Shown: piece by piece, positions 12,242 through 20,125 of the stretch | How positions within the stretch are numbered: the stretch's first letter is position 1 | How the letters are laid out: each line of letters starts with the position of its first letter | The notes under the pieces: model-generated | What the model was told of the DNA's origin: nothing | What the model saw: the letters and a program-made list of their open reading frames with translations, nothing else | Databases searched by the model: none | Translations under genes and position numbers: made by a program | Source: a virus | IMG/VR virus record: IMGVR_UViG_3300036792_000086 | Location: 1 to 20,166 of that record | Length of the DNA: 20,166 nucleotides | Reading direction: 5' to 3' (one strand)

Positions 12242-12430
12242 TTACCAACGGCCGTTGCCATCCGGGTTCCCTATCTTCCGATTCTGTGTCACACAGAACT
12301 CTCTAGCCGGCACCTCCATGCGGTAGTAACGGCCTTGGTCTCCGTACAGCCACATTTGCCGAACTTCTCGAAGCTGCCACCGGCCTTTGCGGAACTGAAT
12401 GTGCGGTTTCAACATAACTACTCCGGTCAT
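12242..12430 (-). CDS. Unknown 62-residue basic protein
   Basis: The start ATG 12430 overlaps the stop of the primase-helicase gene (ATGA). It begins MTGVVMLKPHIQFRKGRWQL, is rich in aromatic and basic residues (MWLYGDQGRYYRMEV) and looks like a small beta-sheet protein. A second in-frame ATG gives MLKPHIQF. It is the last gene of the leftward replication operon, before the terminator. An accessory role in replication is an inference from position only. Confidence 0.6.
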   Translation of the reverse strand: MTGVVMLKPHIQFRKGRWQLREVRQMWLYGDQGRYYRMEVPAREFCVTQNRKIGNPDGNGRW

Positions 12431-14922
12431 GACCTCTTCTGAGCTTCTAGGAAGCCTTCACGCACTTGCGCGGGGCTAAGGTAGTCAACCGCCCACGGGT
12501 GCCCCTTCTCGACGTACAGGCGCGGCCGTGCGCCGTCGGCAAGGGGTATATCGAGCATGCCCTCGGCGCCGAGGCTCGGGTGCGGGACATACCCTAATGA
12601 CATAACGAGACCCTTGCGGGCGTTGCGCGGTATGGCCTTGTCTCGGCCGCACCGGGCAAGTAGGAAGTCAACGGCTTGGCTCGATATCCAGCCGTTGCGG
12701 AAGCCGTCATGCTGCTGTTTGATCGCCTCGACGAGTTCCTGTTCAATGCCGCCTAGGCTTGCGGTCGCGGCGTGCGTGGTCGAGGTCGTGTTCGGTGCCT
12801 CGATACAGCCAACAGCCGGGTTCAACTCGTCGGGTATATCGTAGCTCATGAGGTAGTCGTACACCATGGCGGCCCCGTCTTGACCCCACAGCCACGCGTT
12901 GAGCCCGATGAAGTACGGCTTGGTGAGGCCGTCGCGGGCCTTGTCCGCTTTGGTCTGTTGGGCACAGAAGAACGCCGCGTAACGGCGCTCGTCGAGGTCG
13001 ATGCGTATGCCGTTCTGATGGTTCGAGAACAACATACCGTTAAAGCAAATTTCCTTCATCGACTTCGGCCCGTACATGGGGCGGATTTCCAGGCGTTCGG
13101 CTGTTACGAGTTGCTTTAGGATTTCCTCGAACTCGCGCTTGTCATCGTTGTACATTTCGTCGATGACCAACAGTAGCTTGCCGACGAGGTGCTCGTTGAA
13201 CTTCTCGCCTAGCTGGTCTGCCTTGGCCCAATGCGTGTAGCGATGCGAGGTGCAATACTCCATTACCTTGCCTATGGTCGTCTTGCCGTTGCCTTTCGTA
13301 CCCTGGACGAACGGCCACCATGTGAACTTGCGGCCGAGGTTTTGGACGCACGCGGCCATGTAACACAACAATATAGTTGCGTCTTGGCCGTCCGGTAGCA
13401 TCTTGCGCACGAGTTCGAGGAAGGGCGTCGGATCACCTTGCACCCGGCGAATGTTGGCCGGCTGATACATGTTAATTTCGTCGCGGCCTTCACGGGTGCG
13501 CTTCGTGCCACACGCTTCGCGCGGGTTGAAGTATTGCGTGTGCACCCGTGGGAAACGGTGTATCTCCGACAGCGTGTAGGCGTCCCACGCGCTCTTGGTC
13601 GGTTTCTGCCCGTCCGCTACCATCGCGAACAGCGGGCCGCCAAACATAGAGTCGAACCGTTCCTTGGTGACGGTCGAGCCGTCTAGTATCTGAATCGCGT
13701 GTATGTCCTGCACATAACAGTAGCCCTCGAAAATCTGTTTCATCATTGCGATGTTGCAATACTCGCCCACGGGCGGTAGCTCGCCGGGCTTGAGCAACTT
13801 ATCAACGATCTTAGGCGGCCCCGAGGGCACCGCCATTTCAACGGTGATCATTCCAGGCGGTGCCGGAACTGAGGGCGGGGCGGGAATTTGAGGGGGCGAG
13901 GGCGCCGGCTGACTACTATCCGGCGCGGTTGGAAGCTCTTGACCGGGGTTAGCGGTTTGTACGAGCTTGGGTTCACTATACCACTCGTGTTGAGTTCCGC
14001 AAGCGCTAAGGATCGTGCGCGGGAGGTAGTCGGGCCGGTCCCATTTGTCGCGGACGAGCGCTGACTGTTTCATCATCCGCAACATTCGCTCGCAATCGTT
14101 GCCGGTCCAGAACGCTAGGTGATTGGCCAAGGCTTGGTCGGCCGCCGAACCGTCCCATTGGCTGTAGCTGTTCTGTGAGGGGAACGCCTTCGCCAGCGTT
14201 TCGGCCTCGGCCCGCCATAGGTCGCTAAACGCCGCCCCGCCGCCGAAGACAGCCTTGAGGGCGATAGACCGAGTAGCGCGGGCGACGAGTTGCGCGTCGT
14301 CTGTGGGACCTTTCCAGGCGGCCACAGGTGCCGTTGTCCACTCGACCCCGTGCTCGGCTTCCTCGTGTTCGGGGAAGTATTCGCCGAGGAACGCCCCGAG
14401 GGCCTTGGTGCAGTCCGCTAGGATGTTCCCGGCGGCCTCGTCGCCCGTCAAGGCCATGAACCGGGCCTTGGTGTAAGCCTCCATTCGATAGAGCTTGTTC
14501 CGGGTCCCGTGGGCGAACGAGCCCGTGTAGGACCCGAAGACGTGCCGGCCGGTGGCCGATAGCGAGGTTTCGCGGTACGCCTCGGGAAAGCGGCCCTCGA
14601 AGCTCACAACGTGAGCCATCCAACCGCCATGGGTCTCGCGGCACCCGTCAAAGTCGAGCGCGAATATCCCGCAGCCCTCGTGAATGACAAGGCCGACGCC
14701 GTAGCTGAGCACGCCGGGCGGCTTCGCAAGGTTCCATTGATCCGCCCACGACTTCGCCTCGTGCGGCAACATCCAATTAGAACGGTCTTGACCGTCTATG
14801 TTGCCGCCGGTCGTCGGGTGCGTAGGGAGTTTGTCGGTCTTGCCGTCTTCGCGCGGTACGGCACGGTAGAGGATAAACATGACACGCGTTGCGAGCGCGT
14901 CAAGCAATAGAGTATTCTTCAT
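12427..14922 (-). CDS. Primase-helicase, primase-polymerase plus DUF5906 helicase
   Basis: This 831-residue protein initiates and drives phage replication. The N-terminal part (about 1-180) looks like a primase-polymerase: D90-F-D92 in IFALDFDG and SLSATGRHVFG (120-130), the S-x-G-x-H type motif. A Pro-rich linker lies around residues 325-355. The C-terminal superfamily 3-like ATPase has Walker A GTKGNGKTT (541-549) and Walker B LLLVIDEM (D588-E589), with GMLFSNHQNG and DLDERRYAAFF further on, matching DUF5906 phage helicases. The order is reminiscent of the NrS-1 phage polymerase. No DnaA-like or separate primase is in the window. No SD precedes the ATG. It follows the TetR-like gene by 61 nt and is probably expressed from that promoter. 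Confidence 0.88.
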   Translation of the reverse strand: MKNTLLLDALATRVMFILYRAVPREDGKTDKLPTHPTTGGNIDGQDRSNWMLPHEAKSWADQWNLAKPPGVLSYGVGLVIHEGCGIFALDFDGCRETHGGWMAHVVSFEGRFPEAYRETSLSATGRHVFGSYTGSFAHGTRNKLYRMEAYTKARFMALTGDEAAGNILADCTKALGAFLGEYFPEHEEAEHGVEWTTAPVAAWKGPTDDAQLVARATRSIALKAVFGGGAAFSDLWRAEAETLAKAFPSQNSYSQWDGSAADQALANHLAFWTGNDCERMLRMMKQSALVRDKWDRPDYLPRTILSACGTQHEWYSEPKLVQTANPGQELPTAPDSSQPAPSPPQIPAPPSVPAPPGMITVEMAVPSGPPKIVDKLLKPGELPPVGEYCNIAMMKQIFEGYCYVQDIHAIQILDGSTVTKERFDSMFGGPLFAMVADGQKPTKSAWDAYTLSEIHRFPRVHTQYFNPREACGTKRTREGRDEINMYQPANIRRVQGDPTPFLELVRKMLPDGQDATILLCYMAACVQNLGRKFTWWPFVQGTKGNGKTTIGKVMEYCTSHRYTHWAKADQLGEKFNEHLVGKLLLVIDEMYNDDKREFEEILKQLVTAERLEIRPMYGPKSMKEICFNGMLFSNHQNGIRIDLDERRYAAFFCAQQTKADKARDGLTKPYFIGLNAWLWGQDGAAMVYDYLMSYDIPDELNPAVGCIEAPNTTSTTHAATASLGGIEQELVEAIKQQHDGFRNGWISSQAVDFLLARCGRDKAIPRNARKGLVMSLGYVPHPSLGAEGMLDIPLADGARPRLYVEKGHPWAVDYLSPAQVREGFLEAQKRS

Positions 14923-15277: not shown

Positions 15278-15307
15278 ACGTTACTTTAAAACTGACGCCG
15301 GTGTCAA
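15278..15307 (-). promoter_or_regulatory. Autoregulatory operator-promoter of the TetR-like gene
   Basis: On the minus strand TTGACA (15307-15302), a perfect -35, is followed by an 18-nt spacer and TAACGT (15283-15278). The operator TGACGC-CG-GTGTCA (15293-15306) covers the -35 and part of the spacer. One half-site carries a T in place of C and so may bind less tightly, as is usual for autoregulation. The VRR-NUC stop codon is inside the -35. Confidence 0.7.
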
Positions 15308-15795
15308 AGGACGCCGGTGCGATTGGTGATTAGGGCACGACCGCCCGCGCTATTGATCGCGTAGGCCCATTTCTCTTGCGCTATCTCTTCGAGTGTGCCG
15401 CTGTACTTCCAGTCGCCGGCCTTGGCCTCGACCGAGAGAAAGCGGCCAACCTTGTAACCGGGCAAGCCGAGCGCTATGGCTTCTAACACCATTTCCATAG
15501 TAACAAACAGGGTTTCGAGCCCGATAAGATCGGCCGACTTCACAACATCGCCGAGCTTCTTAGAGTCGTTGGCTAACCCGTAGCGCACGAAGTTCCCCGA
15601 CTCCATACGACCGGCGCCTCGGTTGTTGCGAAAGAGAAGCTTGCCGAGGCGCGCGGCTTCCAACCGTAGGTCACGCTGTACGCCGGCTTCCGGGGTTGTA
15701 TCCTCGGATGCACCAAAGTACATGGACGTGTCGCGAAGCTCTTTCAACGCCTCGGGCGGCACGCGCCATTTAATGACCCATTCTAGGAAAGTCAC
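15304..15795 (-). CDS. VRR-NUC family nuclease
   Basis: This 163-residue protein belongs to the PD-(D/E)xK superfamily and is likely to process branched or recombination DNA. E46 in RLEAARLG, D89 in KSADLIG, E123-A-K125 in FLSVEAKAG and Q140 in EIAQEKW line up with the catalytic order of VRR-NUC proteins, and the N-terminal half also carries the FRNNRGAG element. I place the start at GTG 15795, overlapping the stop of the upstream gene (GTGA), rather than at TTG 15828, which adds 11 residues. It lies with a helicase and Spo11-like protein in one leftward operon, which supports a role in recombination or replication. The stop lies in the next promoter's -35. Confidence 0.8.
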   Translation of the reverse strand: MTFLEWVIKWRVPPEALKELRDTSMYFGASEDTTPEAGVQRDLRLEAARLGKLLFRNNRGAGRMESGNFVRYGLANDSKKLGDVVKSADLIGLETLFVTMEMVLEAIALGLPGYKVGRFLSVEAKAGDWKYSGTLEEIAQEKWAYAINSAGGRALITNRTGVL

Positions 15796-16049
15796 GGGTT
15801 GCGCCGCTTGTGCTGATGCATCGCCCAAATACGCATGTTGCTGGCTATGTCCATGGCCTCGGCGTACTTCTTCTGTTGCAACGTAGACATGTTATTCCAG
15901 CCGCCTTTGCTCACGATGTAGTCGCGCGCCCACGCTGCCACGGCGGCCGGCGCGTTCTCGTCGTTGGCGCGCAAGACGAACAGCGGCTCGTCGTCGGCGG
16001 CTTTGTTGAGGCAAGAGGTCTGTGTTGCAAGTTCGTCGCGTTTGAGCAT
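15792..16049 (-). CDS. Small phage protein with EPLFVLRA motif
   Basis: This is an 85-residue protein. The segment DDEPLFVLRANDENAPAA is shared in part with the neighbouring 16059-16271 protein (NNEPIFVLRAINWKAAL), so the two are likely tandem paralogs. The motif 'EP(I/V)FVLRA' is frequent in small phage proteins of unknown role. The C-terminal half is helical (YAEAMDIASNMRIWAM). AGGAA precedes ATG 16049. The stop overlaps the VRR-NUC start. Confidence 0.75.
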   Translation of the reverse strand: MLKRDELATQTSCLNKAADDEPLFVLRANDENAPAAVAAWARDYIVSKGGWNNMSTLQQKKYAEAMDIASNMRIWAMHQHKRRNP

Positions 16050-16058
16050 GTTGGGTTC

Positions 16059-16271
16059 CTAGAATGGTATGTCGGTCTCGTTTAAGAACTCTTTCATTTC
16101 CAACGCGGCGGCAATCAATTGCTCCGCCGTCCGATTCGGGTCCTTATTCAACACGGCAATGATAAGCGCCGCTTTCCAATTGATCGCCCGCAAGACGAAT
16201 ATAGGCTCGTTGTTGTCGGCTTGGTTCCAGTCGCTTTGCGGGTTGAGAATCTGTTGCGCTTTTGTGCTCAT
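16059..16271 (-). CDS. Small phage protein with EPIFVLRA motif, paralog of neighbour
   Basis: This is a 70-residue protein starting at ATG 16271, overlapping the helicase stop (ATGA). MSTKAQQILNPQSDWNQAD precedes NNEPIFVLRA, which matches the next gene's motif, and the tail is helical (AEQLIAAALEMKEFLNE). The frame is open upstream but runs through the helicase gene. The role is unknown; conserved location beside a helicase and nuclease suggests an accessory factor of that module. Confidence 0.72.
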   Translation of the reverse strand: MSTKAQQILNPQSDWNQADNNEPIFVLRAINWKAALIIAVLNKDPNRTAEQLIAAALEMKEFLNETDIPF

Positions 16272-17980
16272 GCTGCCGCCGCTTCTACAACGTTGTTGGC
16301 TGTTAGGTCTTTCTGTATGCGCGTCGCGAGCCCGTCGGCCTCGCCCGTGCCGAGCGTGCAAGCCGTCACCACATCGACGCCGTAGGTAAGGTAAAACCTT
16401 TTCTGCGCCGTGCGCAAGTCTTCGCCTAGATGAATTCGCCAACCGCCCCATATCGCCATGATGTGGCGCAACGAGGCTTGGTGCCGCTGTCGGTTGTAAT
16501 GGTTCTTGACTATCGCGCCGCCGACTACGCCCTCGAAGACTTGGGGCGGCGGCCCGTCGAGCTTCGTAATCTCGTTCTGCAAGGCCACCAGAACGGCCGG
16601 GTCGAGCAACACCATGTCACCATCGACGTGCTCGGGCAACGAGCGCCCGGCAATCTCGGGGGTATGGCCGCAGTAGGGGCACGAGGTGTAGAACCGCTCG
16701 TAAGGCTTCGTGCACTTCACACACGGGCGCAACGAGTCGGCCCCGGCGCGAATCCGCACCCGGCTTTCGCGGTCGTCGAGCGTGTAGGCTTGGCGCGAAC
16801 ATGGGCGGCCGTGCCATTGGGCGAAGTAACACGTGTTGCCAACGTGGTCTATGACAATTGCTTTCGGCTTCGACGAGGTTGCAATACGAGCGAGGCGTTC
16901 CCAATCCGAAAGATTTCCCCACGTGCGCGCCTCGTCATCGCTAACCAAGACTCGAAGCGCGCGGCCAATCTGTTGTGCGAACACTTGAAAGCTCGCCGTT
17001 CGACGCGCCAGCGAGACAACCTCGATAGCAGGCACGTCAACACCTTCTCCCAAACAGTCCACGGAAACGAGTTGCAATATCTTGCGCTCTCGGAACATGC
17101 GCATGAACTGGCCGCGTACGGTGATAGGTGTCTTTGCCGTAATGATTTCAGCCGGCACACCCGCCGCGTTGTACGCCGCCGCGATCTTTTTCGCTTCTTC
17201 AATATCAACGGCAAAGGTAACTCCTAACTTCCCGTAGGCTAGCTCTAGGTACTTCTTGACCACATCGCCGACGAGGCGCTTTGACTGGTGAGTAGCGGCG
17301 CGAAGCTGCGGCAACACGAGGTCGCCGGTTGCGGGGCTTATCTCAACTTCGCTAAAGTCAACATCGCTCTCAGGACAATAGATATCGTAGTCAGTAAGGA
17401 AGCCGCGATTAATAAGCTCGCGGCAAGTAGGACCCAATACCAACCGGTCAACCAAACCTGAAGCATGGCGGCCAAGGCCGTTACCATCAGCCCTGTAAGC
17501 GTGGGCAGTAAGAAACAGCCCGCGAGAATTAGGGAACATGGCGAACGCCTTGCCCCATTTGTTAGCTGTAAGTACATGGTGCCCCTCGTCGATGACGGTT
17601 AGACCAACCTGATTGAACCAACGATCTTTGGTGTCGAGCTTGAGCGAGTCAACTCCCGCTACGCGCACCTCGGAGCGGGAGTTGTAACGGGAGTAACCAT
17701 GTGTCTCATGGTGTAGACGGATAATCTGTTGTTGTATCTTCTTAGGTGCAATGATGCCGTGATAGATGCCTTCGCGATTCAACGCCAACGAGACTTGAGA
17801 CACAAGCTCTTGCCGGTGTGCAATGGCGCATGTCGGGCGGTTCATCTTCTGAATCGTGCTACCCATGAGCACGGTTTTACCGCCCCCCGTGGGCAACACC
17901 GGCATGACGTTCATTACGTTGGGCTCGTGCCAAGCCTCAAATGTGCCGTTCTCTACCTCGGCTTGGAAGTCGCGTAGCAC
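16268..17980 (-). CDS. SF2 DNA helicase (DEAD/DEAH-like) with zinc ribbon
   Basis: This 570-residue protein starts at GTG 17980, which overlaps the previous stop as TAGTG and places MLRDFQ at the expected N-terminal helicase position. A longer version from 18034 would overlap the zinc-ribbon gene. Motif I is PTGGGKT (30-36), motif II DEGH (131-134), motif V region GEGVDVP and motif VI QQIGRALR. Motif III reads LTAHAYRADG rather than the usual LTATPxRxDG. A zinc ribbon CVKC...CPYC follows the helicase core, and the C-terminus is a separate basic and helical region. It likely unwinds or remodels DNA during phage replication or recombination. The next gene is coupled by ATGA. Confidence 0.88.
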   Translation of the reverse strand: MLRDFQAEVENGTFEAWHEPNVMNVMPVLPTGGGKTVLMGSTIQKMNRPTCAIAHRQELVSQVSLALNREGIYHGIIAPKKIQQQIIRLHHETHGYSRYNSRSEVRVAGVDSLKLDTKDRWFNQVGLTVIDEGHHVLTANKWGKAFAMFPNSRGLFLTAHAYRADGNGLGRHASGLVDRLVLGPTCRELINRGFLTDYDIYCPESDVDFSEVEISPATGDLVLPQLRAATHQSKRLVGDVVKKYLELAYGKLGVTFAVDIEEAKKIAAAYNAAGVPAEIITAKTPITVRGQFMRMFRERKILQLVSVDCLGEGVDVPAIEVVSLARRTASFQVFAQQIGRALRVLVSDDEARTWGNLSDWERLARIATSSKPKAIVIDHVGNTCYFAQWHGRPCSRQAYTLDDRESRVRIRAGADSLRPCVKCTKPYERFYTSCPYCGHTPEIAGRSLPEHVDGDMVLLDPAVLVALQNEITKLDGPPPQVFEGVVGGAIVKNHYNRQRHQASLRHIMAIWGGWRIHLGEDLRTAQKRFYLTYGVDVVTACTLGTGEADGLATRIQKDLTANNVVEAAAA

Positions 17981-18153
17981 TATACGAGGTCCGGGTGCGG
18001 GCTTTCGCCGTACGAGCCGCCGCACACGGGGCACACATAGAACCTGTCTTCAAACCCGCCCTTGACCAACAAGGGGTAGATAGGTTCGCCGGCCTCAGTA
18101 AACCCGGTACGACACCGGGTACAATTCTTTGTAGGTATGCAAGGGTTGCACAT
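17980..18153 (-). CDS. Small zinc-ribbon protein, 57 residues
   Basis: The start ATG 18153 overlaps the Spo11-like stop (TAATG). Cys pairs in NCTRCRTG and YVCPVCGGS form a four-Cys zinc ribbon separated by about 27 residues; an additional Cys pair lies at the very start (MCNPC). It overlaps the helicase start by one nt. Such mini zinc ribbons often act as DNA- or protein-binding accessories; the position between the Spo11-like and helicase genes suggests a partner of one of them. Confidence 0.7.
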   Translation of the reverse strand: MCNPCIPTKNCTRCRTGFTEAGEPIYPLLVKGGFEDRFYVCPVCGGSYGESPHPDLV

Positions 18154-19040
18154 TACACGAAGCTCTCGGCGGCCTTGCGGATACGCTCTTGCACGTCTTC
18201 GACCTTGCGCTCGTCGGCTTCCCATTGCCCGTCGTCGATGCGCGCCTGTATTTCCGACTCAACAAGGTTGACAAGGTACTCGGGCGGTAGCGCATCGAGT
18301 TCCCACGACTCGTTGCCGAACTGTTCCATGTACTGTTGGAACCGAGAGTCGGTCGTCTTGGCCGGGTTCGGCGGCGGGCTGCGTTCCTGTATCTGGTCCA
18401 TGGTGAGGGCGAGCCGCACAAGCTCGACGCGGTGCTCGCGGTCGCGGGAGAACATCGCAATGCGTTCCTGTAGATCGCGGGTCATGTCTATGCCGCTCGG
18501 GTCGTGGTCGCCGAGGTGCAGAATCGTAACGTCTTGGTCGTCCATGTGCGGCATGATGTCTTCGACGGCGAAGTCGCGCAACACGGTGCAACTCGGATAC
18601 CCGCGCGCCGCGAGTATCGGCGTATCGTACTTGTTGCATGTTGGAGTTAGGACGCCTACTAGAGCTTCCTTCTCGATGATAACGAACACCCGGCGGGGTT
18701 GGCGCCGCCACATGTCGATGTGAAACGAGCTAGCGGCGGCCTCAAGAATCTCAGCCCCGTTGCCCCAACGCTGGCGGCGTACGAAGTCGCGCGTTCTATC
18801 CTCGATGGCCGACCAGTCCATGAGGCCGGCGATACGGGCGTCGTTGGCGATGCTGGTCACTCGCTTGTAGCTCTTTTGCGAGTTCTCGATTATGTCGCGT
18901 GCCACTAGCTGGTAGTAAAGCTGTCGAATGGTGAGCACGAAGCCTTGGGCGACGTACTTCTCGATAATCTCGTTCATCGTGTCGATGAGCGCGAGGGTTT
19001 TATCCCCGAAATTGAAGTAGCGGTACTTTTCCGTTGCCAT
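18153..19040 (-). CDS. Spo11/topoisomerase VI-A-like protein (Mini-A-like)
   Basis: This is a 295-residue protein. LTIRQLYYQLVARD (36-49) matches the 5Y-CAP active-site segment with candidate catalytic Tyr42 or Tyr43. A TOPRIM domain follows: FVIIEKEAL with E123, AARGYPS, and LHLGDHDPSG with D178-x-D180, the metal-binding acidic pair. Together these mark the topoisomerase VI A / Spo11 family that cuts double-stranded DNA through a phosphotyrosyl link. No GHKL ATPase B subunit is in the window. That, and the short length compared with about 370 residues in Topo VI-A, fits the 'Mini-A' class described in mobile elements. ATG 19040 is preferred to 19124, which overlaps the divergent promoter region. 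It heads the leftward helicase-nuclease operon. Activity is unproven. Confidence 0.85.
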   Translation of the reverse strand: MATEKYRYFNFGDKTLALIDTMNEIIEKYVAQGFVLTIRQLYYQLVARDIIENSQKSYKRVTSIANDARIAGLMDWSAIEDRTRDFVRRQRWGNGAEILEAAASSFHIDMWRRQPRRVFVIIEKEALVGVLTPTCNKYDTPILAARGYPSCTVLRDFAVEDIMPHMDDQDVTILHLGDHDPSGIDMTRDLQERIAMFSRDREHRVELVRLALTMDQIQERSPPPNPAKTTDSRFQQYMEQFGNESWELDALPPEYLVNLVESEIQARIDDGQWEADERKVEDVQERIRKAAESFV

Positions 19041-19126: not shown

Positions 19127-20125
19127 ATGCGCCTCGAAATAAACGACGACGACTTTCGCGCCTTGCCCAAACAAACCTTTCGCGCCGCCGCCTACTTCCT
19201 CTTACACGTCATCGGCGACTTGGACGACGAGACCGGCGTAGTTCCCGTGGGAACTAGTGTCACCCGCACGTCGAGCGAGACCGCAACAGCCGGCGACTTG
19301 TCGCTTACCAAGACGACGAGCGTTACCAAGAGCGCCGCGCCGCCCCCGCCGCCCCCGCCTTCAACTTCCAACACGCCCCCGCCGCCCCCGCCGCCGACGG
19401 CTGCAAGCGACGGTGACTACGACGACGAGACCGGCGAAGCTCACGACACCGGCACGAGCAACGTTGTACAGGGAAATTTTCCCCAAGCGGGCTCGGCAGT
19501 CCCGCCGCCCCCGCCGGGTGCGAATACTGCGGCCGCCCCAACCCAATCGGCCCCGGCTGCAAACGGTGCGGCGGCTGCGGGGGCACCTTCGGGTGTTGTG
19601 TCTGCCGAGTTTGATTCGGCCGGAATGCAGTACGACGACCGTATTCACCAGAAAGCCAAGGGCAAGAAGAAAGACGGCACTTGGAAGTTGATTAAGGGCG
19701 TTGACACCGCGCTCGTGCAGTCGGTCACGGCGGAGCTTGCCGCGCGCAAGGCTTCGTCGGTGTCTCTTCCCCCAAGCGGGAATTCCGTGCCTGTGCCCCC
19801 GGTCTCGGGAGCCGTTCCACCCGCGCCTAGCGGAGTGTCTACACCGACTGCCAACGGTGGGTCATCTGTGCCCGTTCCGCCGGCACCCGCCGTTGGGAGC
19901 GTGGGCGCAAGCCCTTACCGCGCGCTCATCGACAAAATCACCGAGTTGACCAAGGCTAGCAAGATCGCGCCGGCCAAGGTTATGGAGGTATGCCAATCCC
20001 ACGGTGCGCCGTCACTCATGGCGTTGAGCGGCATGCAAGAGGCCAAGTCGCCCCGCGACCCCGGCCTAACAGTGATCCAAGCTGTTGACCGCGATATCGA
20101 CGCGGCGGCGCTCGGGCTGTTGTAA
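19127..20125 (+). CDS. Proline-rich phage protein with RIH/GVD motif
   Basis: This is a 332-residue protein from ATG 19127, with GGGAG 11 nt upstream; in-frame ATG 19103 is an alternative. The N-terminus (RALPKQTFRAAAYFLL) is followed by two polyproline runs (about residues 70-92), an Ala-rich linker, then SAGMQYDDRIHQKAKGKK and DGTWKLIKGVD. This resembles a recurring phage motif 'D-x-x-G-(L/M)-x-(W/Y)-D-x-RIH...DG-x-W...RGVD' found near recombination genes. The C-terminus is a helical domain (ALIDKITELTKASKIAPAKV). It may be a modular adaptor, possibly single-stranded-DNA or recombination related, but no catalytic domain is seen. The final 41 bases of the window (20126-20166) show nothing further. 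Confidence 0.8.
   Translation: MRLEINDDDFRALPKQTFRAAAYFLLHVIGDLDDETGVVPVGTSVTRTSSETATAGDLSLTKTTSVTKSAAPPPPPPPSTSNTPPPPPPPTAASDGDYDDETGEAHDTGTSNVVQGNFPQAGSAVPPPPPGANTAAAPTQSAPAANGAAAAGAPSGVVSAEFDSAGMQYDDRIHQKAKGKKKDGTWKLIKGVDTALVQSVTAELAARKASSVSLPPSGNSVPVPPVSGAVPPAPSGVSTPTANGGSSVPVPPAPAVGSVGASPYRALIDKITELTKASKIAPAKVMEVCQSHGAPSLMALSGMQEAKSPRDPGLTVIQAVDRDIDAAALGLL

Follow-up and report, generated by a model that had tools for sequence, protein, structure and literature searches.

The window analysed here, meaning the whole stretch of DNA, is a single virus contig from IMG/VR, 20,166 bases long and likely a fragment. The gene of interest (18153-19040, minus strand) has an ATG start and no internal stops, and encodes a protein of 295 amino acids that is assigned here to Mini-A, a class of truncated topoisomerase VI A subunits (Topo VI-A). 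It lies among the following features:

12427..14922, minus strand: primase-polymerase/helicase related to NrS-1 polymerase (HBD and DUF5906), assigned by Pfam, PHROGs, and synteny
15304..15828, minus strand: putative VRR-NUC-like endonuclease (phrog_93, E 9e-8), its order conserved in relatives
16268..17980, minus strand: SF2 DNA helicase (Pfam ResIII, E 4e-11, and Helicase_C, E 2e-9)
17980..18153, minus strand: 57-amino acid ORF with two CxxC pairs, zinc-ribbon-like, no family assigned
18153..19040, minus strand: Mini-A protein, with a Topo VI-A/Spo11-like winged helix (Tyr42-Tyr43), a TOPRIM domain (E123, D178, D180), and E247
19127..20125, plus strand: divergent proline-rich protein (phrog_11133), beside Mini-A in four close relatives

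The helicase start was taken as the GTG at 17980 (18034 in the ORF list). At TAATG the ATG of the 57-amino acid ORF overlaps the stop of Mini-A, and at TAGTG the stop of this ORF runs into the GTG of the helicase.

Three motifs described as intact in the initial annotation are all present in the 295-amino acid protein: RQLYYQL at residues 39-45, IIEKEA at 121-126, and GDHDPSG at 177-183. Nearly the full length of the protein matches phrog_6247, "DNA topoisomerase" (E 1.5e-114). Pfam returned nothing significant for it (TP6A_N, E 0.063; DUF2399, E 0.008), and among 86 relatives the TOP6A-Spo11 Toprim model was matched weakly by six and TP6A_N by one. PADLOC and NCBIfam gave only matches that were at chance level or confined to the TOPRIM part. 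Searched by sequence against the PDB, neither the protein nor profiles A1 and A3 found a match, after which fold comparison and a purpose-built Topo VI-A alignment were used. Strong purifying selection acts on Mini-A, with dN/dS of 0.122 between the window protein and its 86%-identical relative L001, and of 0.026 between the proteins of phages SPN19 and BP12C. Given the phrog_6247 match, the 73 phage records described below, and the dN/dS of 0.12, the ORF in the window is not a chance one.

Spo11, the initiator of meiotic recombination, derives from the DNA-cutting half of Topo VI. Mini-A came to light in genomes in about 2020, and is said to go back to Takahashi et al. in that year. The definition used here is taken from reviews, and the filing of the window protein under Mini-A, made by sequence comparison, can be graded as safe because of two anchors. 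The protein of Pseudomonas phage NP1, drawn as a Mini-A example in a review of topoisomerases (PMC7614492, figure 4), is 52.5% identical to it by tblastn, and a gene of the uncultured-archaeon plasmid LC711082, annotated as "Topo Mini-A/DNA topoisomerase VI," is 30% identical (E 2e-23). The resemblance to the Mini-A class that had been proposed for this protein is therefore upheld. Full-length homology, the motifs, a truncated Topo VI-A without B, and carriage by viruses and plasmids are common to the NP1 example and the window protein; no feature distinguishes the latter from the family, and adjacency to an SF2 helicase is found mainly in its own lineage. Mini-A is already named and common in phages, and the window protein is a new member of it; what is new is the match to Topo VI-A at the level of residues, the wide search that turned up no B subunit, and the pairs of chiviruses with and without the gene. 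No biochemistry or assigned activity for any Mini-A was found in the literature searched.

The same tblastn search found Mini-A in 73 phage isolate records, with one copy in each; IMG/VR holds at least 587 relatives, and 226 were found in bacterial and archaeal genome contigs. The expectation that such an enzyme would be unusual in a phage is contradicted by the isolate and IMG/VR counts. Mini-A is also carried by small circular plasmids of 8.8 and 15 kb, and in PLSDB a divergent branch (25-30% identity) is carried by 33 Streptomyces plasmid records. One contig labelled as a Nanoarchaeota archaeon MAG has a Mini-A (48% identity) close to the bacterial-phage type; of the 60 genomes sampled from that phylum, only this one lacks Topo VI-A, pointing to contamination, misbinning, or incompleteness. 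In the Mini-A of Clavibacter phage 33 (L018:5995-6981), some 37 residues around the first TOPRIM strand and its Glu are duplicated in tandem (TQDRRIFLVVEKEALVGVFQNVCWQFDVPLLAARGYP twice), a candidate for either a real insertion or an assembly error.

The residues expected of a Topo VI-A active site are kept across the family. E123, D178, D180, and E247 are invariant in 177 of 177 Mini-A sequences, and R39 and Y43 are kept in all 176 that cover them, the exception being Roseobacter phage RDJL Phi 1, where they fall in a protein split over two ORFs. In that phage (L016:6001-6902) the annotation divides Mini-A between two ORFs on opposite strands, and the frame is broken at about residue 85-95 by a frameshift or a sequencing error. 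Loss of the catalytic tyrosine in close homologues, which had been named as an argument against cleavage, was not seen in any sequence covering it. Tyr42 is replaced by Phe in one protein (L070) and by Trp in the archaeal plasmid protein, so Tyr43 is the sole invariant tyrosine of the pair; this pattern agrees with mouse SPO11, in which the second tyrosine of the pair (Y138) is catalytic (PMC11922746).

For the comparison with Topo VI-A, 30 archaeal proteins were collected. In the HHalign alignment, TxRxxYY, the TOPRIM Glu, the GDHDPSG/DGDPYG loop, and a later "PPPNPAKxTD / LPTHPLKEVD" segment occur in the same order in both families. In this profile comparison, of a kind suggested in the initial annotation, the score of 28.1 exceeds those of all 100 column-shuffled controls (maximum 26.2), although the probability assigned by HHalign itself is 6% and the Pfam matches are not significant. 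A MAFFT alignment of six Mini-A and three archaeal Topo VI-A sequences places R39, Y43, E123, D178, D180, and E247 in register; the counterparts by motif in Methanosarcina mazei Topo VI-A are R102, Y106, E202, D254, D256, and E342, of which R102 and E342 form a clasp that restrains cleavage (PMC13040014). Compared with the PDB by fold, the AlphaFold2 model of Mini-A (pLDDT 93.5) is closest to three chains of M. mazei Topo VI-A, with probabilities of 0.99-1.00 and an E of about 1.5e-3. The rmsd is high because the two domains are placed differently, so that the agreement found by this structure prediction, also suggested at the outset, holds per domain. While the catalytic Arg and Tyr, the three TOPRIM acids, and the clasp Glu align, Mini-A is about 70 residues shorter than Topo VI-A (295 versus about 360-370 amino acids), mostly at the N-terminus, and 17-19% identical to it. 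Its start lies about 60 residues later relative to the catalytic Arg in the MAFFT alignment, and Mini-A therefore does not have the segment corresponding to Topo VI-A residues 44-67, a latch on DNA required for the relaxation of supercoils.

By Pfam and predicted structure, the 295-amino acid chain consists of winged-helix and TOPRIM parts only, with the ATPase part absent. The absence of a visible GHKL B subunit, reported initially for the window, was confirmed there and in a 52.8-kb contig of a relative whose Mini-A is 86% identical (G001); the genome of the window phage is incomplete, and the result for it rests on its relatives. HATPase_c was found in none of 48 Mini-A-bearing genomes or contigs, complete isolates included, and thus the B subunit elsewhere in the genome that would have made this an ordinary Topo VI or VIII was not detected. 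HATPase_c_3 and Topo-VIb_trans were each found in none of 45 Mini-A-bearing records; as positive controls, both HATPase models were found in 14 of 14 genomes, while Topo-VIb_trans was above the cut-off in only four of the 14, with three bacteria listed below it. Mini-A accordingly lacks the GHKL/transducer B subunit by which Topo VI is recognized. Topo VIII is also a type IIB relative on mobile elements, but it carries an ATPase part, which was found neither in the window Mini-A nor in the genomes of its relatives.

Some related phages differ in whether they carry the gene. The SPN19 region matched 105 Salmonella chivirus records, only six of which cover at least 80% of it; these six are three phages (SPN19, 118970_sal1, and BP12C), all holding Mini-A. 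The site is empty in KFS-SE1 and FSL SP-088. The segment specific to SPN19 is 893 bases, in effect the Mini-A gene alone, and identity in the flanks is 97-99% over the 500-base windows closest to it. Besides this segment, SPN19 has only three regions of at least 90 bases with no match in KFS-SE1, and both phages retain genes for helicase, endonuclease, polymerase, exonuclease, and primase. Among these chiviruses the gene is present or absent as a single unit, the empty sites being clean, and given the purifying selection on it Mini-A can be called dispensable yet useful. Within Queuovirinae, Mini-A lies between the ligase and Sak4 genes in NP1, whereas Seuratvirus Skure and Amoyvirus R7M carry that operon with Mini-A missing. 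Three SPN19 candidates for a co-inherited partner were considered: gp08 is also found in phages without Mini-A, gp32 is missing from BP12C, and for a primase-end segment there was no second Mini-A-bearing phage among the matches listed. With these three set aside, no partner is seen travelling with Mini-A.

The neighbourhood in the window had been read as a recombination operon with a zinc ribbon, an SF2 helicase, and a VRR-NUC nuclease. The helicase is supported by Pfam; the nuclease is an "endonuclease" by phrog_93 only, the product of 15304..15828 having no match to Pfam VRR-NUC; and the zinc ribbon is an ORF for which no family was found at E <= 1 except one PHROG at chance level. Four close relatives (L001, L019, L020, and L021) share the gene order of divergent proline-rich gene, Mini-A, SF2 helicase, endonuclease, small conserved ORF, and primase-polymerase. 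In these relatives the zinc-ribbon ORF is absent, being found only in the window, and is therefore not a conserved partner; the helicase lies directly downstream of Mini-A, with a stop-start overlap between the two in L001, L019, and L021. The operon reading thus holds for the helicase-nuclease-primase order common to the four relatives, but is specific to this lineage and does not extend to the zinc ribbon. Beyond the lineage the tie fails: in other phages Mini-A has other neighbours, and comparable helicase, endonuclease, and primase genes are found in its absence. ThyX adjoins Mini-A in chiviruses and a Brevundimonas phage, and integrase and regulator genes are nearby in temperate elements. 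Among 178 loci no constant neighbour was found, the commonest neighbour family occurring in 26.

The reading preferred here, with a probability of roughly 60%, is that Mini-A is a truncated, B-independent Topo VI-A that acts as a homodimer to cleave DNA through Tyr43 in the manner of Spo11, as an accessory early function. Two subunits would dimerise on DNA, and Tyr43 in the winged helix of one would attack a phosphate held by the TOPRIM metal site (E123, D178, and D180) of the other. The product would be protein-linked breaks made without ATP, as with purified dimers of mouse SPO11, which alone cleaves DNA (PMC11922746). R39 and E247 match the Arg-Glu clasp by which cleavage is restrained in Topo VI. 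Mini-A would then be an accessory early phage enzyme acting on replicating DNA; lacking an ATPase half and the N-terminal latch segment, it is expected to cut DNA and perhaps reseal it, but not to drive directed duplex passage. Recombination, replication topology, and counter-defence are candidate benefits to the phage. Spo11, a possible parallel, is an A-type cleavage protein without strand passage, but it is eukaryotic and works with TOP6BL and other partners. Against the preferred reading, Mini-A resembles Topo VI-A only weakly in sequence (Pfam matches not significant, HHalign probability of 6%, and fold E of 1.5e-3 with high rmsd), and it may have a divergent ATPase outside the GHKL models or a partner from the host. 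A bolder form, in which Mini-A is a complete, partner-free, one-protein cleaver of the Spo11 type, gained as a single gene by phages and small plasmids and making controlled tyrosine-linked breaks in their own replicating DNA, is put forward only tentatively.

The same chemistry could serve a different end if the breaks were mainly resealed, Mini-A then being an ATP-independent relaxing topoisomerase (nick-close or cut-close) that supplements host gyrase in phage or plasmid replication. Breaks left open would be fatal to the 8.8- and 15-kb circular plasmids, and the presence of Mini-A on them argues that breaks are often resealed. The clasp residues R39 and E247, which hold down cleavage in Topo VI, are conserved; ATP-independent relaxation is known for one Topo VIII (PMC7614492), and SPO11 with one active site can relax plasmids (PMC11922746). 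However, the latch segment required for relaxation by Topo VI is missing, as is an ATPase to drive passage. For these two reasons cleavage without directed passage is slightly favoured, and relaxation as the main role is considered rather unlikely.

Hydrolysis by a metal-dependent TOPRIM nuclease in the manner of JetD/MksG or GajA, with the tyrosine not serving as nucleophile, is improbable. The profile similarity to DUF2399 and JetD is weak and limited to the TOPRIM part; rather than a full-length JetD/DUF2220 match, only about 80-100 residues are aligned (E 0.003-0.007). Mini-A shares the TOPRIM nuclease superfamily with JetD/MksG but has a conserved catalytic tyrosine: R39 and Y43 never vary where present, the winged-helix motif TxRxxYY and E247 can be aligned with Topo VI-A, and the solved structures matched best are those of Topo VI-A, the 50 listed including neither JetD nor GajA. 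There is even less to recommend Mini-A as the A half of an ordinary two-part Topo VI or VIII whose B subunit comes from another phage locus or from the host. Known strand passage by Topo VI requires B, the window is a 20-kb fragment, and a very divergent ATPase could escape the models; the 45-48 records searched for the three B-subunit models, complete isolates among them, nevertheless gave none, no gene was found to co-segregate with Mini-A in chiviruses, and Topo-VIb_trans passed its cut-off in only four of the 14 control genomes. Least probable is a selfish homing-like cassette that cuts empty alleles and is copied in by repair, which would fit a single gene present or absent between near-identical flanks but is opposed by the absence of co-conversion (SPN19 and BP12C are 83-90% identical near the gene versus about 93-99% over most of the compared genome), by the low dN/dS in this pair, by the single copy in each phage record, and by the stable operon position in the lineage of the window.

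If Mini-A is partner-free, no simpler form of the Topo VI-A/Spo11 machine would be known. The residues aligned between Mini-A and Topo VI-A point to informative mutants, and the chivirus pairs that differ by exactly Mini-A at its site offer a clean test of a B-less Topo VI-A in vivo, which bears on how Spo11 could have arisen as a cleaver without the topoisomerase B subunit. At that site Chi (L217:1474-1728) and iEPS5 (L218:1630-1884) have an unrelated 84-amino acid ORF, and the position looks like an exchange place for accessory genes.
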